Source of the DNA: a virus
Strand: one strand, 5' to 3'
Virus record (IMG/VR): IMGVR_UViG_3300025108_000245
Span: 1 to 30,328 of that record
Length of the DNA: 30,328 nt
This document shows, piece by piece, positions 1 to 29,443 of this stretch. Position numbers and translations under genes: made by a program. Position 1 is the stretch's first letter, and every line of letters begins with the position of its first letter. The notes beneath the pieces were generated by a model, which was given only the letters and a program-made list of their open reading frames with translations, was not told the DNA's origin and did no database searches.

Positions 1-3000
1 AAAGAAAGATGGCTGGAAACCTAAGTAAACAAACGGCGAATTACTGGTGCTGCCGTTGCCGGTGTAGGAACCAGCCTTAGTGGTATCGGTGTTTGCGAAA
101 CAGTAGGCTATCATTCCATCGCCGCTATCATTCACATCGCCTTCAGCACCAACACTAAACACAGATGATGTTGGTGCGGTGCTGTTCCAGTAGTTTGCGC
201 CTGCACTTGCTTGTGCATCTGTGCTGTCAAGCCGCAAATAATGGTCATTAGATGACAGGTCTTTGTGCCACACTGACCAGTTTCTACCGTCAATGCGGTT
301 CTTCACAATAATCATAGAAGGCTCAACGCCCAGAGAGTGTCCAATCGTGGCTGCCGAACCAGAGCCAGTCCAGCCAACGATGCTAAACCCTGCGTCAGTA
401 TTCGCGGAAACTTGTGACGTAATGCTGCCTGCGGTATTGCTGACCGCAGTGCCGCCAGCTTTCCAGTTCCAGCCTACTATTGCAGAACCGTTTTCGTTTG
501 TTTCAGTACGGTTGCCAACAAAAAATCCGTCTGTTTCAAAAGTAAAGTCGGTGCCAACATCAGTTTCAGCATCAGTCTTGTTTGTCTTTAATTTTTTACC
601 ATCCCCACGAATTACATCATATATATTGTGGTCTAAAACGCTTGTTCTGTTTTTAATCCAAACAAAGTCTGGTGCGCTGCCAAACCCAACCCCTGTTATT
701 GTTTGTGTTGTAGAGCCATTACCAGTATAAAGCACCGTATTGAAATACTCAGTGCCAGAAATTATTGAAGGGTCAGGAAGGTTAGCCGTACACAAGGATT
801 TGAAACCCGCCGGTGGCTGGTGCTGGAATGTTCCCAGTTCGCTGTCATCGGTGTACTCACCCATCGGCTTTGCGCCAGCGAAGGTGCTGTCTTGACCGAA
901 GTTGACAACCGCTTGGTCAGCCGTCGGCGGCACAAACAGCATCGGAATAAAGTCGCCGTCTAATGCGTGACTAATTGTTCCTTGTGAAGCACCATTTTTG
1001 AAAAACTCGACTTCATCTCCGTCTATGTCTACAGCAATGCCTATAATATCGTCTGCTGTGTAAGTAGCACCGTAAGATGAATTTGTGCCGTCGATACGTT
1101 TCTGACCATCTTCACGATAATAAACGTCGCTATCACTAGCGCTTCCTGAATTGCTGTAACCGCTGCAAATGCCAACGTGCCAAGCAGATGCGCTATCGCT
1201 ACTAAGAATTAAAACCTCAAAATAATATTTTCCAGTAGCGGGGAATTGTATTGTGCCTTGTGCAGCTTGCGATGCTGTGCCGCTAGTCTGCCCTTGAACT
1301 TTTAAATTGCCTTCGGAAAAAACAGCTTTTTCTGTAACGTCTCCACGAGTTACTAGGGAGTTTATTACAGACCAATTGTTGACAGGACTGTCAGGCAAGG
1401 TATCACGATAGTCTAGGTTGTTAGGTGTCCAGTGGTTGCCCTGCCCAGACACGTCTTTCCAGAAGGCTGCTTCGCGTGTGTCGGCAAAGGCCATATAGAT
1501 GTGTTCGCCGCCAGATTGGTTAATTGTTGAGCCAGTGCCAACCAAAGTAAACCCATCATCATCAAACGTAATTTCAATAGTAGAATTAGACACTTCGGCA
1601 GAAGAATCGTTTGCTTCTAATCGTGTATCAGTAGATGCACCGGGATGCCTTGTACTGTCATAAATGCACCAATCCTTAGTATCGTTGGTTTTCTTAATCA
1701 TAAGCCAAGCAGGCTTGAAGCCTAGACCAGTTACAGAATTGTTAGCCGAACCTGTGCCGCTGTATGACCCGATGGATGAGTAGCCAGCCACCGAATGGAA
1801 ACAATAGGCTATGTGATTTGACCCTGATTTGTTTGATGAATTACCGCTAACCGAAAAAACTGAAGATGTTGGGGCGTTGGCTCCTGAATCGGTTTTAGCA
1901 CCAGTGTTCTCAAGAGTTAAAAAATCAAGAGAACCATCAATAGCAGTTGTATACACTAACCAAGATTGACCCGCCGTAGTCCTGTTTTTAATTATAAATA
2001 ATTCTGGCGTAGAATTTAAACCGTGACCAACAGTTTGTGAAGAACCATCAGTTCCAGCCCAGCCCACGATGCTAAACCCATAGCTAGGATTTGCCTTGAC
2101 CGTGCTGGTGATTGACCCTTGAGTATTGCTGACAGGTGAACCGCTGCCAGCATCCCAGCACCAAGCGACACCGCCATTACCAGCAACATAGTTAGAGTTT
2201 TCTTGATAACCTAATGTAAAGCCATCGGCATCAAAAGACGTTAATGAGTCTGCCTTTGTAGACTCTGCGTTTGTCTGGCTTGATGCCAGCTTTTTAGTAG
2301 AACCTCTAACAGTGTCATAAAGTTCGTGGTGGAAACTATTGTTTCTTGCCTTCGTCCAAACGAAATCTGGACTAAAGCCCAAGCCACTTATGCTTTGCGT
2401 ACCAGCATTTGCACGATAGGTAGCAGTATTGAACCCTTCAGACACAACGTCATCTTCAAAGGTTAGGTGGAAACCGTTTGTACCGTATGTGCCAGCGTAG
2501 TCTTTTGCTTTCCAGTAGCCGTTGACAGTCTCACCAAAGCTACTTGCGTCTAGTGCTTGACCGTCAATGAAGTTGATGTCGGACATATAGCCGTCAAAGT
2601 AGTCTGAGACTTGAGGAGCGTAACCTATATGGTGATCAACAGTATTATTAGTTTGGGTTTCTCTATCTAATTCAATTTTGTTATCGTTATCTAGCTCAAT
2701 CCGAACACCGTTAACATATATTTTTATTCTGTCGATCTCTGTTGCGTTTGTACTGTCGTAAGCCATAACGATATGATACCAAGCCGATGGGTCACGAAAT
2801 AATGCTATAGAATTTTGTTTTGCGTTGGCAACGTTGCTTGCTTCTTGTCTCCAAAATAACTGACCTTCATCGCTTGTCATTCTAAATAGGAGTTGGTCAT
2901 TGTTAGTAGTGCCACCAGCGCCAAATAATACAGAATAACCTGACCCACTAATTTTTCCACGCTTGACCCAGCCACTCCAAGTCCAAGTCTTGCGGTTGCC

Positions 3001-3123
3001 AGCAGATGCAGGCGTCCAGCTTAGATACTGGCTTTCGTCATCGTTGAACTTGAGGGATTGCTGGGTAACTGCCTCTGCGCCAGAAGCGTACATCCATTGT
3101 GAGGAACCTAGTGGGCCTGACAT
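1..3123 (-). CDS. Large tail adhesin with LamG-like and SPRY domains (3' end outside window)
   Basis: An open frame begins with ATG at 3123 and stays open to the left edge (about 1041 codons), so the C-terminus is missing. Translation gives a LamG/concanavalin-like jelly-roll region (about residues 16-205, with phrases such as YLSWTPASAG and WSGWVKRGKI). A repeat unit follows (about 235-550: GLGFSPDFVWTKAR, FSIVGWAG, APTSSVFSVSG), then a SPRY-like domain (about 575-750: YYFEVLI, IIGIAVDIDGDEVEFFKNG), then a second copy of the unit (about 805 onward: GVGFGSAPDFVWIKNR, FSIVGWTG, APTSSVFSVG). Such proteins are common as distal tail or fibre components of marine phages and are expected to bind surface glycans. 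The preceding fibre genes support a host-recognition role. No peptidase or lyase motif was recognised in the visible part. Domain calls are by eye; a tail adhesin is likely, the ligand is unknown. Confidence 0.85.
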   Translation of the reverse strand, partial: MSGPLGSSQWMYASGAEAVTQQSLKFNDDESQYLSWTPASAGNRKTWTWSGWVKRGKISGSGYSVLFGAGGTTNNDQLLFRMTSDEGQLFWRQEASNVANAKQNSIALFRDPSAWYHIVMAYDSTNATEIDRIKIYVNGVRIELDNDNKIELDRETQTNNTVDHHIGYAPQVSDYFDGYMSDINFIDGQALDASSFGETVNGYWKAKDYAGTYGTNGFHLTFEDDVVSEGFNTATYRANAGTQSISGLGFSPDFVWTKARNNSFHHELYDTVRGSTKKLASSQTNAESTKADSLTSFDADGFTLGYQENSNYVAGNGGVAWCWDAGSGSPVSNTQGSITSTVKANPSYGFSIVGWAGTDGSSQTVGHGLNSTPELFIIKNRTTAGQSWLVYTTAIDGSLDFLTLENTGAKTDSGANAPTSSVFSVSGNSSNKSGSNHIAYCFHSVAGYSSIGSYSGTGSANNSVTGLGFKPAWLMIKKTNDTKDWCIYDSTRHPGASTDTRLEANDSSAEVSNSTIEITFDDDGFTLVGTGSTINQSGGEHIYMAFADTREAAFWKDVSGQGNHWTPNNLDYRDTLPDSPVNNWSVINSLVTRGDVTEKAVFSEGNLKVQGQTSGTASQAAQGTIQFPATGKYYFEVLILSSDSASAWHVGICSGYSNSGSASDSDVYYREDGQKRIDGTNSSYGATYTADDIIGIAVDIDGDEVEFFKNGASQGTISHALDGDFIPMLFVPPTADQAVVNFGQDSTFAGAKPMGEYTDDSELGTFQHQPPAGFKSLCTANLPDPSIISGTEYFNTVLYTGNGSTTQTITGVGFGSAPDFVWIKNRTSVLDHNIYDVIRGDGKKLKTNKTDAETDVGTDFTFETDGFFVGNRTETNENGSAIVGWNWKAGGTAVSNTAGSITSQVSANTDAGFSIVGWTGSGSAATIGHSLGVEPSMIIVKNRIDGRNWSVWHKDLSSNDHYLRLDSTDAQASAGANYWNSTAPTSSVFSVGAEGDVNDSGDGMIAYCFANTDTTKAGSYTGNGSTSNSPFVYLGFQPSFF

Positions 3124-15728: not shown

Positions 15729-16562
15729 CTATTCAGTCGCTGAGATTTTGACAATGCCATCGTCATCAATGGCAACCGCGCCTGCGGAGAACATTGAAGA
15801 AACGAGGAATGACGTTTTCTCAGGAACGTAGTTGATTTCTGACTTTTGGTTCATGCCGATACCAAGGCCGATTGCATCGCGATGGAACGCAAAGCAAGTG
15901 CGGGTTGATGGTAGTGGCAGGCCACCTTCATCACGATCACCAAGTGTGATGAACTTAAAGCCGAGGAAAGTGTCGATCTCGCCTGTTGAAAGAGCCTTCA
16001 CAGTAGCAAAATCGCTGCTGGTAAGTTCTGTCTCATCAAGCAATGCTGACAAACCGTTTGCGTGAATGATCATGCAGCGGCCTTCTGCTGGCACGTTCTT
16101 CACATCCAGAGCCTTTTTAGCTGCGAGCAGCTTTGCAAGGTTCATGTTTGTGCCTGCGCCACCAACAGTTGTTGCAACGGTTGACGGTGCGGAAGCTGCA
16201 TTGAGCGCGTCAATAACAAGCTGATCCATACGGCGACCAATAGCTGCACCGACTACTTGCACCAATTCACGGCGCTCGTCAAAATTGACTTTCTGCTGTG
16301 AAAAGATGTCGCTATATTCGGCAGCGATGTAGTCGCTCATTGTTGCTGTGACCTGCGAATAGGTCACGTTAAGAGGGGTTACGTCAGTTTGCGGTACGCG
16401 AACTGTTGCGGTGCCTTTCCCGATCTTCGGGAACTTCACCTGATTGCCTTCGACACTTGTTCTTTCGCGAGTAATGCCAGCCAAAGCACGAGATGCTTGA
16501 TAAGCCTGCTTCACTTCCGCATCGAACAATTGCACAAAAGCATTGGAAATGCCTACAGCCAT
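15729..16562 (-). CDS. Major capsid protein
   Basis: The 277-residue protein starts MAVGISNAFVQLFDAEVKQA. It contains an N-arm and E-loop-like region (GNQVKFPKIGKGTATVRVPQ), a spine-like helix (FDERRELVQVVGAAIGRRMD) and the AEGRCMIIHANGLSALLDET segment of a P-domain. These features are typical of the HK97-fold capsid family found in marine podoviruses; the length is on the short side but normal for that group. It is preceded by the scaffold gene and by its own promoter and leader, as expected for the most abundant virion protein. An AAGGA lies about 8 bases before the ATG. Confidence 0.88.
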   Translation of the reverse strand: MAVGISNAFVQLFDAEVKQAYQASRALAGITRERTSVEGNQVKFPKIGKGTATVRVPQTDVTPLNVTYSQVTATMSDYIAAEYSDIFSQQKVNFDERRELVQVVGAAIGRRMDQLVIDALNAASAPSTVATTVGGAGTNMNLAKLLAAKKALDVKNVPAEGRCMIIHANGLSALLDETELTSSDFATVKALSTGEIDTFLGFKFITLGDRDEGGLPLPSTRTCFAFHRDAIGLGIGMNQKSEINYVPEKTSFLVSSMFSAGAVAIDDDGIVKISATE

Positions 16563-16688
16563 TTTCCTATTCCTTTGTAAAAGTTAAAACACGATTAGCG
16601 CCTAGCAGGTATCCTTTCGGGCTGCGGCTTGGGCATACACGCTACGCCCCCAAGCGTTGGCGACAGGTCGAAAGCCGATTGTCTGTCA
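16563..16688 (-). promoter_or_regulatory. Structured 5' leader of the capsid gene
   Basis: About 126 bases separate the predicted transcription start from the capsid ATG, unusually long for this compact genome. No ORF fills it. On the minus strand it can fold at least one strong helix: a 7-bp GCTTGGG/CCCAAGC stem (16649-16655 with 16627-16633) and a 15-base loop. A GACAG/CTGTC pair near the 5' end is also possible. An A/U-rich stretch then leads to the AAGGA ribosome site. It may stabilise the capsid mRNA or control its translation. No known riboswitch or ribozyme consensus was recognised. Confidence 0.45.
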
Positions 16689-16694
16689 ACAGGT

Positions 16695-16723
16695 ATTATA
16701 TTGAAAAAAGAAGGAACTGTAAA
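16695..16723 (-). promoter_or_regulatory. Sigma70-type promoter for the capsid operon
   Basis: On the minus strand TTTACA (16718-16723) is followed after exactly 17 bases by a perfect TATAAT (16695-16700). It points at the capsid gene. The -35 box lies within the loop and descending arm of the terminator hairpin, so terminator and promoter share bases. Use of the host RNA polymerase is inferred. Confidence 0.65.
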
Positions 16724-16730
16724 CAGTTCC
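16703..16730 (-). terminator. Intrinsic terminator after the scaffold gene
   Basis: On the minus strand GGAACTG-TTTA-CAGTTCC (16713-16730) forms a 7-bp stem and tetraloop, directly followed by TTCTTTTTTC. It begins 11 bases past the scaffold stop. This is a classical rho-independent terminator ending the terminase-portal-scaffold transcript. Confidence 0.85.
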
Positions 16731-16740
16731 CTCTTGACCT

Positions 16741-17517
16741 TTAAGTTGGCGAGTATTCGTCATTGCCAAACGCTTGCTCAAACATTTTTTCAACCTTCAT
16801 TCGATATGTTGGGTCAGTTTGATATTCTGGTTTGCCAACCATAGCCATCAGTTCGTCTTTTGACGGCGCACCGGCCAATGGCGCAACGTCAACAGGAATA
16901 GCCTTGTCGCCATAATAGCTGCGCACTTTCTGCAAAGCCCTCATGCCTTGGGCTGTGCCGCCCATAATTTTGAACTCTTCAAAATCATCCTCAGACCAAA
17001 CACCTTTGCGCACCAGACCAGAAGCCCAGTCAGACATTGATTTAATGATTGCGTCTGCATTGTTGCCCAGCTTTTCATATTCTTCCTTGTATGAAATGTC
17101 TGCGGCCTCAGCCTCTTCACCAGCCATAGAAATAAACTTGCCAGCAAGTTCTTCAAACGCAGACTGGCTAATGCCGTTTTCTTTAGCCCAGTCTTTGTAT
17201 GTTGTGTAAAGCTCGTCATCCTCTGGAATGCCAGCCTCAGCAAACACGCTTTCGTCATACTCTTCTGGGGCTTTGTGCTTTCCTTGGCTAAACTTTTTCT
17301 GCAACTCAGAATAAGCCTTTGCCAAATCTTCGCCGGTATTAAATTTTTCTGGCAACCACTCAGGTTTTCCCTCTTCGGTTGCCGCCTCTGACGCTACTGC
17401 GTCACTAGAAACTGTCTCGCCATCAGGCTTAACGTGTGAGATTGTTTCTTCTGCTTGCTGTTGGTTATCGTCACTCTCAACTTGAGCATCGGCCAACAGA
17501 CCATCAGTTTCGTTCAT
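16741..17517 (-). CDS. Capsid assembly (scaffold) protein, gp9-like
   Basis: The 258-residue, strongly acidic and helical protein has a disordered Glu/Asp/Gln-rich N-terminus (1-50). A WLPEKFNTGEDLAKAYSELQ motif follows near residue 54, typical of T7 gp9-type scaffolds, which open with similar phrases about adding or going on with a segment K(A)YxELExKxG. The C-terminal helical region is the expected capsid-binding part. It lies between portal and capsid genes and overlaps the preceding Bbp19-like gene by 4 bases (ATGA). The terminator follows 11 bases after its stop. The family is clear from composition, motif and synteny. Confidence 0.88.
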   Translation of the reverse strand: MNETDGLLADAQVESDDNQQQAEETISHVKPDGETVSSDAVASEAATEEGKPEWLPEKFNTGEDLAKAYSELQKKFSQGKHKAPEEYDESVFAEAGIPEDDELYTTYKDWAKENGISQSAFEELAGKFISMAGEEAEAADISYKEEYEKLGNNADAIIKSMSDWASGLVRKGVWSEDDFEEFKIMGGTAQGMRALQKVRSYYGDKAIPVDVAPLAGAPSKDELMAMVGKPEYQTDPTYRMKVEKMFEQAFGNDEYSPT

Positions 17518-22547: not shown

Positions 22548-22941
22548 CATCGCCCTCAATCTCGACAATCTTCGCCGTTGGCCCGGTAATGTTAATGCCA
22601 ATCATGCTCGGCTTGTCGCCGTCACTGTTAGGCTCCAATAACCCGCGATGCTTCGCCAATAGCCGCAACGCCGACAACTTGTCGTGCATCTCCACCTCAA
22701 TCTGATTGCCAAACTGATTGGGCGTAACCTTGACCTTTTTAACCGCCCGGCGGGCGCGATCCGACAACTGATCGCTGGGCGTTAGCGTGACCCTGCCCAT
22801 ATCATCCCACTGGATAACGTCAGTCGCCTCACCGGCACCAATCGCCTCTAGCTCTTGCACAACGGCCTCGCGCCGAGCCTCATCGGAGGAAGCCAGCGCT
22901 GCTCGCTGCTGCCTAATCGTTGGCGATTTTTTTTCTGACAT
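22540..22941 (-). CDS. terS: Probable terminase small subunit
   Basis: The 133-residue protein from ATG at 22941 (GGAG about 8 bases ahead) starts MSEKKSPTIRQQRAALASSD. It has a helical N-terminus, then a middle with VIQWDDMGRVTLTPSDQLSD and IEVEMHDKLSALRLLAKHRG. The DKLxALxLLxKHxGLL segment is characteristic of many phage small terminases, just before the oligomerisation C-terminus. It lies two genes before terL in the right direction. A classical N-terminal HTH was not clearly seen. A small terminase fits best. Confidence 0.75.
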   Translation of the reverse strand: MSEKKSPTIRQQRAALASSDEARREAVVQELEAIGAGEATDVIQWDDMGRVTLTPSDQLSDRARRAVKKVKVTPNQFGNQIEVEMHDKLSALRLLAKHRGLLEPNSDGDKPSMIGINITGPTAKIVEIEGDDG

Positions 22942-23194
22942 CCAGACACTCCGATCCTGTTGCGGCATAGCCAGCCAGATCAACCCAGCTATCCTGATGA
23001 TCAGGCGTGGCCGCTAAACGCGCCAACTTTACCCCAGCCATCATCATAGCCACATGCTCCGGCTCAATCTGTATGCCAATTAGCGCCGTCCATATAATAG
23101 CAATGCGCTCGTGATTTTCCCAAATGCTGCCGTAATCCTCGCCACGATCAGCGACAGTTTCCTTGGCGGCGTCCAATAACTCGTATCTGTTCAT
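22913..23194 (-). CDS. DUF6378-like protein
   Basis: The 93-residue protein contains the signature string of this family: DRGEDYGSIWENHERIA (17-33), then IIWTALIG, MMMAGVKLARLAATPDHQDS and WVDLAGYAATG. The family is widespread in phages, often near replication or packaging genes. Function is unknown; the helical arrangement with conserved E, D and K residues recalls MazG-like NTP pyrophosphohydrolases, which is only a suggestion. The ATG overlaps the upstream stop (ATGA) and the end overlaps terS by 29 bases. Confidence 0.8.
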   Translation of the reverse strand: MNRYELLDAAKETVADRGEDYGSIWENHERIAIIWTALIGIQIEPEHVAMMMAGVKLARLAATPDHQDSWVDLAGYAATGSECLDVRKKIAND

Positions 23195-28595: not shown

Positions 28596-28814
28596 ATGGC
28601 TAAACTTACTAAAAAGCAGGCAAACGCAATCGAAATGATTGCAATCTATTATTCAATGGCAGTTACAGAATTGGACACCAACGGCGTCACTGAAAAATAT
28701 GACGAACACGTTTGGATGTACGTTCATCATCGTGATCAGCTTGGCTTAAAAGTTTCGGCATATCAACGCGCAGCCGCAGATCGGTTTTGGGCAACAACTA
28801 AGGCGGCGGCATAA
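28596..28814 (+). CDS. Small unknown protein leading the rightward operon
   Basis: The 72-residue product starts MAKLTKKQANAIEMIAIYYS and ends in Ala. It is Lys/Ala/Tyr-rich with helical character. ATG at 28596 with AGGGAG 6-9 bases ahead was chosen over a TTG at 28566. Its stop overlaps the recombinase ATG (TAATG). No family was recognised; position suggests an early phage protein, perhaps a regulator or host-takeover factor. Confidence 0.55.
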   Translation: MAKLTKKQANAIEMIAIYYSMAVTELDTNGVTEKYDEHVWMYVHHRDQLGLKVSAYQRAAADRFWATTKAAA

Positions 28815-29443
28815 TGACCACATACATCGCTTATTACCGTGTATCAACTCAGCGTCAGGGCCAGTCCGGTCTTGGCCTTGAGGCACAACGCAGCGCCGTT
28901 GCCGGTTACAACATCGCCGCTGAGTACACTGAGGTGGAAAGCGGCAAGAAGAGCCAGCGCCCGGAACTAGCCGCTGCACTGGCCGAGGCCAAGCGCACTG
29001 GCGCAACGCTTCTCATCGCCAAGCTCGACCGCCTAGCGCGTAACGTGCATTTCATCACTGGCTTGCTTGAGGCTAACGTGCCAATCGTCTGCGCTGACAT
29101 GCCAGAGGCCGACCGTACCTTCTTGCAGATGGCTGCTGTCTTTGCTGAATGGGAAGGCCGCAAGATCAGCGAGCGCACCAAGGCTGCACTGGCTGCTGCC
29201 AAGGCTCGCGGCGTTAAGCTCGGCTCGCCCAACCCTGCCGCTGCTGGCCGTGCGTCAGCAGCCAAGCGCGTTGCGCGTACTAATGTTGTTGCCAAGCAGG
29301 CAATGCCTATCGTCTCGGTGCTGCGTGAGGCTGGTGCCTCACTACGCACCATCGCCGCCAAGCTTAATGAAGCTGGCATCCCCACCGCACTCGGTGGCAA
29401 CTGGCACGCATCCAGCGTGCGCAATCTAATGGGAGCAAACTAA
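28814..29443 (+). CDS. Small serine recombinase (resolvase/invertase family)
   Basis: The 209-residue protein has the catalytic serine in YYRVSTQRQG (Ser11, Arg9), LEAQR (22-26), AKLDRLARN with Asp72, Arg73 and Arg76, and a long E-helix region (QMAAVFAEWEGRKISERTKA). A C-terminal HTH (GASLRTIAAKLNEAGIPT) ends the protein. It is the usual size for resolvase/invertase enzymes, not for the large phage integrases (450 or more). It may resolve multimers, invert a segment or integrate. All catalytic positions look present. It starts in the stop of the previous gene and ends overlapping the next one. Confidence 0.88.
   Translation: MTTYIAYYRVSTQRQGQSGLGLEAQRSAVAGYNIAAEYTEVESGKKSQRPELAAALAEAKRTGATLLIAKLDRLARNVHFITGLLEANVPIVCADMPEADRTFLQMAAVFAEWEGRKISERTKAALAAAKARGVKLGSPNPAAAGRASAAKRVARTNVVAKQAMPIVSVLREAGASLRTIAAKLNEAGIPTALGGNWHASSVRNLMGAN

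Follow-up and report, generated by a model that had tools for sequence, protein, structure and literature searches.

An overlapping terminator and promoter, and a conserved structured leader RNA, before the major capsid gene of marine podovirus-like phages

The DNA analysed here is an IMG/VR virus record of 30,328 bases, the whole of which we refer to as the window. Its minus strand carries, in order, the genes for the small and large terminase subunits, the head-tail adaptor (portal) and the scaffold protein, then the junction described below, and beyond it the capsid gene and the tail and internal-virion genes. The scaffold and capsid genes and the features lying between them are as follows.

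16741-17517, minus strand: gene for a T7-type capsid assembly (scaffold) protein, 258 amino acids (Pfam PF05396, E 5.5e-35; phrog_1052)
16708-16735, minus strand: intrinsic terminator hairpin of 12 pairs with loop TTTA, 3' of the scaffold gene (from sequence and fold; other stems at the same place in relatives)
16718-16723, minus strand: -35 box TTTACA, within the terminator loop and 3' arm (from sequence; conserved in relatives)
16695-16700, minus strand: -10 box TATAAT, 17 nt past the -35 box (from sequence; conserved in relatives)
16687-16689, minus strand: predicted start of transcription, flush with the base where P1 begins to pair (by the position rule of about 7 nt after the -10 box)
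16598-16692, minus strand: structured capsid leader RNA (match to covariance model R1, 90.4 bits)
16662-16687, minus strand: P1 hairpin, GACAG[ACAA]UCG...CGA[C]CUGUC, with a 4x1 internal loop (from alignment and covariation)
16631-16657, minus strand: H-type pseudoknot, ACGCU/AGCGU interleaved with GGGCGU/AUGCCC (from covariation of helices 3 and 4)
16606-16624, minus strand: P3 hairpin, CAG[C]CC...GG[AUAC]CUG, a mirror (1x4) copy of the P1 loop (from alignment and covariation)
16571-16576, minus strand: Shine-Dalgarno-like AAAGGA of the capsid gene (from sequence)
15729-16562, minus strand: major capsid protein (MCP) gene, 277 amino acids (phrog_3437, E 1.8e-55; Pfam PF19821, E 1.5e-73)

No RNA polymerase is recognised among the window open reading frames (ORFs) that were scanned, some long ones of which match no family in a contig that may itself be a fragment, and a T7-type capsid promoter read by a phage-encoded polymerase was therefore set aside as a candidate. 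As the cultured relative MEP301 is likewise reported without an RNA polymerase (PMC8024684), the host enzyme is expected to transcribe these genes. Elsewhere in the window, a serine recombinase with a Pfam Resolvase domain and a partial Recombinase domain (28814-29443, plus strand) is encoded on the other strand from the rest of the phage genes; a resolvase-domain protein has also been reported for MEP301. A 93-residue ORF that overlaps that of the terminase small subunit (22913-23194, minus strand) matches phrog_474 (E 6.6e-27), for which the PHROG families give the annotation phosphofructokinase, an assignment that looks doubtful. The reading frame at 1-3123 on the minus strand, of at least 1041 residues, with internal repeats and open at the left contig end, is probably a tail fibre, and the record looks truncated there.

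At the junction itself, the hairpin reads AAGAGGGAACTG-TTTA-CAGTTCCTTCTT and is followed by TTTTTTCAATAT (TTTTTT), with a T tract running on to about 16702, giving the G+C-bearing stem and T tract of an intrinsic terminator. An earlier, sequence-only reading of this DNA had proposed a strong terminator with a 7-bp stem; the terminator is there, with a stem of 12 pairs (5 of them G-C) in which the 7 bp are the inner part, and it folds at -16.7 kcal/mol (z -4.9), a stability equalled by none of 200 shuffles. The near-consensus sigma70 promoter that the same reading had placed across this hairpin on the minus strand, TTTACA-17-TATAAT (16723-16695), is also present, its spacing of 17 nt falling within the 16-18 nt typical of sigma70 hexamers; it scores 11 of 12 and is the only such match in the window, with no other site above 10. 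The -35 box does lie in the loop and arm, as had been noted, and its last two bases (CA) begin the 3' stem arm, so that the spacer, previously equated with the T tract, also holds the rest of that arm. Terminator and promoter thus share about 40 bases. Each signal taken alone is as canonical as in ordinary intrinsic terminators and sigma70 promoters; it is the sharing of bases, with a -35 box inside a hairpin loop and arm and the arrangement kept across a clade, that is unusual. We hold with high confidence that the promoter is active, and with good confidence that the terminator is.

For comparison with related phages, 437 capsid loci were gathered and reduced to 244 distinct upstream regions and then to 115 clusters, from which a near set of 29 cluster representatives was taken at an MCP identity to the window of at least 79%. 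A stem of at least 8 pairs (at least 4 G-C) spans the -35 box in 23 of these 29, where shuffling the letters of flank and spacer gives an expectation of 1.8; all 23 have a T-rich spacer. In nearly all of the near set, -35-like and -10-like hexamers stand 17 nt apart, the distance being 18 nt in the four that lack the tight nest. The stems themselves vary widely in sequence (GCGGCAGTTG/ATTGCCGC, GCGGGGGTC/GCCCCCGC, ACTGGGGTG/CGCCCCAGT, ATCGCGCCC/GGGCGCGAT and others) and shift register around the -35 box, which dilutes a fixed-register covariation test; a per-sequence stem test was therefore used in its place. These comparisons indicate that the overlap is kept by selection. The earlier reading had looked to related phages for joint conservation of stem and hexamers, and the two are indeed kept together, in register, in most of the clade, which lends partial support to its claim that the overlap ends the scaffold transcript and restarts transcription for capsid. 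That capsid and scaffold dosage would thereby be uncoupled is a plausible conjecture.

A blind classifier applied to all clades called 'nested' 19 of 109 clusters; among 2,180 shuffled regions it called essentially none. It undercounts weak promoters. L069 and L074, with weaker -35 boxes, look nested by eye and were not called. In L027 an automatic promoter pick is wrong, the nested promoter being TTGCGG-17-TAAAAT. In the capsid tree, a single clade of 29 rows (support 100/95) takes in 18 of the 19 nested cases, and the phages with the overlap are a marine podovirus-like group. The same clade also contains members with a separate or weak terminator. The terminator is shifted upstream in relatives such as L039, L054 and L340, and L031 and L047 keep the promoter with no G+C-rich stem. 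In the group of Dunaliella viridis virus SI2 a G+C-rich terminator abuts the -35 box (for example in L361), and at this junction clade B (L062-L081) has a promoter-like sequence and no terminator, as does MEP301, where the promoter is kept. Relatives with one element only, which the sequence-only reading had said would count against it, thus do occur, in clade B and MEP301. Since the terminator may be moved, absent or merely abutting, the overlap is best regarded as a compaction at the level of the clade rather than something that the junction requires.

Three further observations concern these relatives. L071 and L360 are arranged differently, with TTGACA upstream and, immediately ahead of P1, a strong hairpin that covers the spacer and the -10 region. 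SI2 (L198; group L361-L408), deposited as an algal virus, belongs by classification to Caudoviricetes; IMG/VR contains relatives of its capsid protein at 79-82% identity. The SI2 leader has a distinct layout of repeated GGCCC/GGCACCC.

Absent from the earlier reading was a conserved structured leader that begins at the predicted +1. About 95 nt long, it runs from there to about 40 nt before the capsid ATG in the order P1, pseudoknot, P3. In relatives, 5-7 nt separate the -10 box from the base where P1 pairing starts, which puts that base at the expected +1. Covariation was assessed over 23 pairs in an alignment (A1) of 29 cluster representatives. Cells of the leader pairs are paired in 91% of cases, compared with 82% after shuffling; both sides change in 14 of the 23 pairs (8.2 shuffled), and double-change cells number 69 (19.2 shuffled). 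None of 500 shuffles reaches the observed value on any of these measures, and sliding the partner by one column lowers pairing to 31-40%. The pseudoknot helix also varies in a compensating way, its inner pair changing from U-A to C-G in 9 sequences. The exact figures favour the structure, as it was drawn from the alignment on which it was tested and the shuffles keep relatedness; neither the size of the effect nor its recurrence in independent clades depends on this. The minimum-free-energy fold of the window leader alone, by a model that does not cover pseudoknots, is no more stable than shuffles, and the case for the leader therefore rests on covariation, from which we regard it as almost certainly a functional RNA. 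A known family for it was sought and rejected: of 4,227 Rfam families none matches the window at the gathering cut-off, none at E<=10 lies over the leader except for a single hit below threshold that touches its first two bases, and none matches the leaders of 13 distant relatives. The motif was likewise not found in two structured-RNA surveys, part of a literature covered incompletely, so that an earlier description is possible.

The two hairpins of the leader carry related internal loops. P1 has an outer stem, 4 nt, an inner stem and 1 nt on the return strand, and in P3 the sides are exchanged. Of 14 internal-loop geometries scored over 124 leaders, 4x1 and 1x4 are the sole clear enrichments, with 52% and 23% above the shuffle 95th percentile; the other twelve lie at 5-15%. 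Near the window, an ACAA or AUAA loop in P1 is paired with AUAC in P3, while both loops read CUAA in clade B, CAUA in the MEP301 clade, AUAC in L451 and GUAG, with U opposite, in L453. The first letter is common to both loops in 42 of 43 cases chosen as canonical (19 on permutation), a concordance to which ancestry contributes; shared ancestry inflates this test and the pair-shuffle test alike. Mirror-order 4x1 loops are visible even in relatives whose capsid protein is only about 28-30% identical. As a sign of a protein operator site, such a repeated identical loop is only suggestive.

The leader is tied closely to one gene. At least 119 stretches match a DNA pattern drawn up for the P3 region, and 150 of 153 pattern matches are directly followed by a capsid-protein ORF; two of the remaining three end at a contig edge and one runs into a capsid-like start. 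In 644 kb, covariance model R1 gave 41 matches at E<=1; each lies immediately 5' of a capsid gene, with one per contig. In a second set, of genome-collection contigs, it gave six at E<=10, again all just 5' of a capsid gene: L440 (4e-18), L442 (3e-7) and L441 (8e-5) match well, and the weaker L449, L451 and L450 precede capsid genes of about 30% identity. Vibrio phages (L199) and Pelagibacter phage EXVC031P (L200) have no recognisable leader of this type. A twin-hairpin leader does occur in L453 and L454, short contigs binned as Methanotrichaceae and Woesearchaeota (host assignment unsure) with a capsid identity of about 28%; the loops of these two archaeal-binned loci are GUAG/U (or GGAG/U). 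Overall, the leader is kept before the capsid gene in related phages, probably of bacteria and possibly of archaea. It is present without the terminator in the MEP301 clade and in clade B, and the two are thus not mechanically tied.

From what is observed, namely the sequence, the co-conservation, the RNA covariation and the exclusive linkage of leader and capsid gene, we infer a scheme of termination, initiation, mRNA protection and protein binding in which the junction would act as a reset point for host RNA polymerase. With terminator and promoter kept in register between the scaffold and MCP genes, the ending and restarting of a transcript is the natural reading. Polymerase arriving through terminase, portal and scaffold would halt at the hairpin and T tract, and a strong sigma70-type promoter in the same DNA would start a new transcript about 20 bp past the hairpin. 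The new capsid message would begin flush with P1 and so have a base-paired 5' end, which may shield it from decay that depends on the 5' end; part of the reason for keeping the terminator may be that it gives capsid messages this clean start. The leader would act in cis on the capsid mRNA, and we favour an action on its stability or translation. Its twin 4x1 loops would probably form a double receptor for a protein, for which a phage head protein feeding back on capsid synthesis is the best candidate, and an economical one because leader and capsid protein are kept together; such feedback is nonetheless a tentative proposal. Taken as a whole, the reset point with a cis-acting leader is the explanation that we lean towards.

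Other explanations bear on the overlap and on the leader separately. The overlap might be an accident of compact intergenic space in which only the promoter functions, as relatives such as L031 and L047, which keep a promoter with no G+C-rich stem, could suggest, but the excess of strong stems in the near clusters, differing in sequence and always with a T-rich spacer, leaves this disfavoured and extremely improbable. Alternatively, polymerase could stay on the DNA after termination and re-initiate at the overlapping capsid promoter, which would couple the transcripts instead of uncoupling them; E. coli polymerase reinitiates at nearby promoters in 37% of intrinsic terminations, or 55% with added sigma70 (PMC6978380), and the capsid promoter could hardly be closer to the terminator. 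Such recycling is unlikely, however: clades that lack the terminator, or have it apart from the promoter, do well, and polymerase in the act of terminating sits on the promoter too and might block it.

As to the leader, the put RNA of phage HK022 binds the zinc-binding domain of the RNA polymerase beta' subunit and suppresses termination, and a cis-acting antiterminator of this type would bind its own polymerase and carry it through the late operon of about 15 kb. Like putL, the leader lies just past a sigma70 promoter and has two stem-loops with unpaired residues (PMC9378689); it too is structured, of similar size and predicted to open the phage transcript that carries it, and a long tail and internal-virion region lies downstream of the capsid promoter. 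Yet R1 finds nothing in the HK022 genome (NC_002166) at E<=10, so that homology to put was rejected for want of a model match, and the window has no strong minus-strand terminator downstream. Unlike put, of which HK022 has two sites, the leader is single in each contig, precedes the capsid gene only, and has an extra pseudoknot and mirror-image 4x1 loops, and the archaeal-binned loci would need a different polymerase target; we judge the put-type reading quite unlikely. A small-molecule riboswitch that sequesters the ribosome binding site and so controls capsid translation would account for an aptamer-like pseudoknot and conserved internal loops before a single gene, and an AACYYT-type motif is enriched before the Shine-Dalgarno sequence (57% of clusters versus 13% in shuffles). 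Complementarity to that sequence is, however, not enriched upstream of it (22% versus 27% shuffled), on which ground its sequestration was rejected; no terminator-type switch lies between leader and ATG, and a capsid protein would be an odd target for a metabolite, all of which makes a riboswitch very unlikely. No pairing with the Shine-Dalgarno sequence is seen for the AACYYT-type motif, which lies at 16571-16600 on the minus strand of the window and at the equivalent position in relatives.

Parts of the favoured reset-point scheme have counterparts in known systems. In LUZ100, of the T7 group, capsid is described as being under a local promoter with a terminator just downstream (PMC10134795), and the capsid gene here would likewise have its own transcript. 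Unlike in the T7 group and LUZ100, the promoter here is of host type and is nested in the terminator that precedes the gene, a structured leader is present and no phage-encoded RNA polymerase is recognised. Stem-loops of the ompA type at the 5' terminus stabilise bacterial mRNAs, and here too a hairpin is predicted flush with the 5' end, although the conserved loops and pseudoknot go beyond the needs of a plain stabiliser. The coat-protein operators of the RNA phages MS2 and PP7 are, like this leader, capsid-linked RNA structures with a conserved unpaired element; the leader, as a putative operator, differs in having its loops twice, at a long distance 5' of the start codon, and in belonging to a double-stranded DNA phage.

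How double-stranded DNA phages produce hundreds of capsid subunits for each set of portal and scaffold is a fundamental problem in the stoichiometry of assembly. As a natural part by which one transcript could be ended and another begun, a terminator with the next promoter inside it is compact, and it offers a ready test of polymerase recycling. The leader is the stronger finding and matters more than the overlap. We put forward, as a conjecture that may well prove wrong, that it belongs to an undescribed and ancient family of structured RNAs in tailed phages, in which two mirror 4x1-loop copies flank a pseudoknot or other variable element; the family would be tied to the major capsid gene in bacterial and perhaps archaeal phages, bound by a head protein that balances capsid synthesis with assembly, and coupled in one clade to the overlap that resets the 5' end. 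The leader is a defined, mutable element for testing, with a related leader in the clade of the cultured MEP301, and the presence of a capsid-specific structured RNA across diverse phages points to control of capsid synthesis at the level of RNA.
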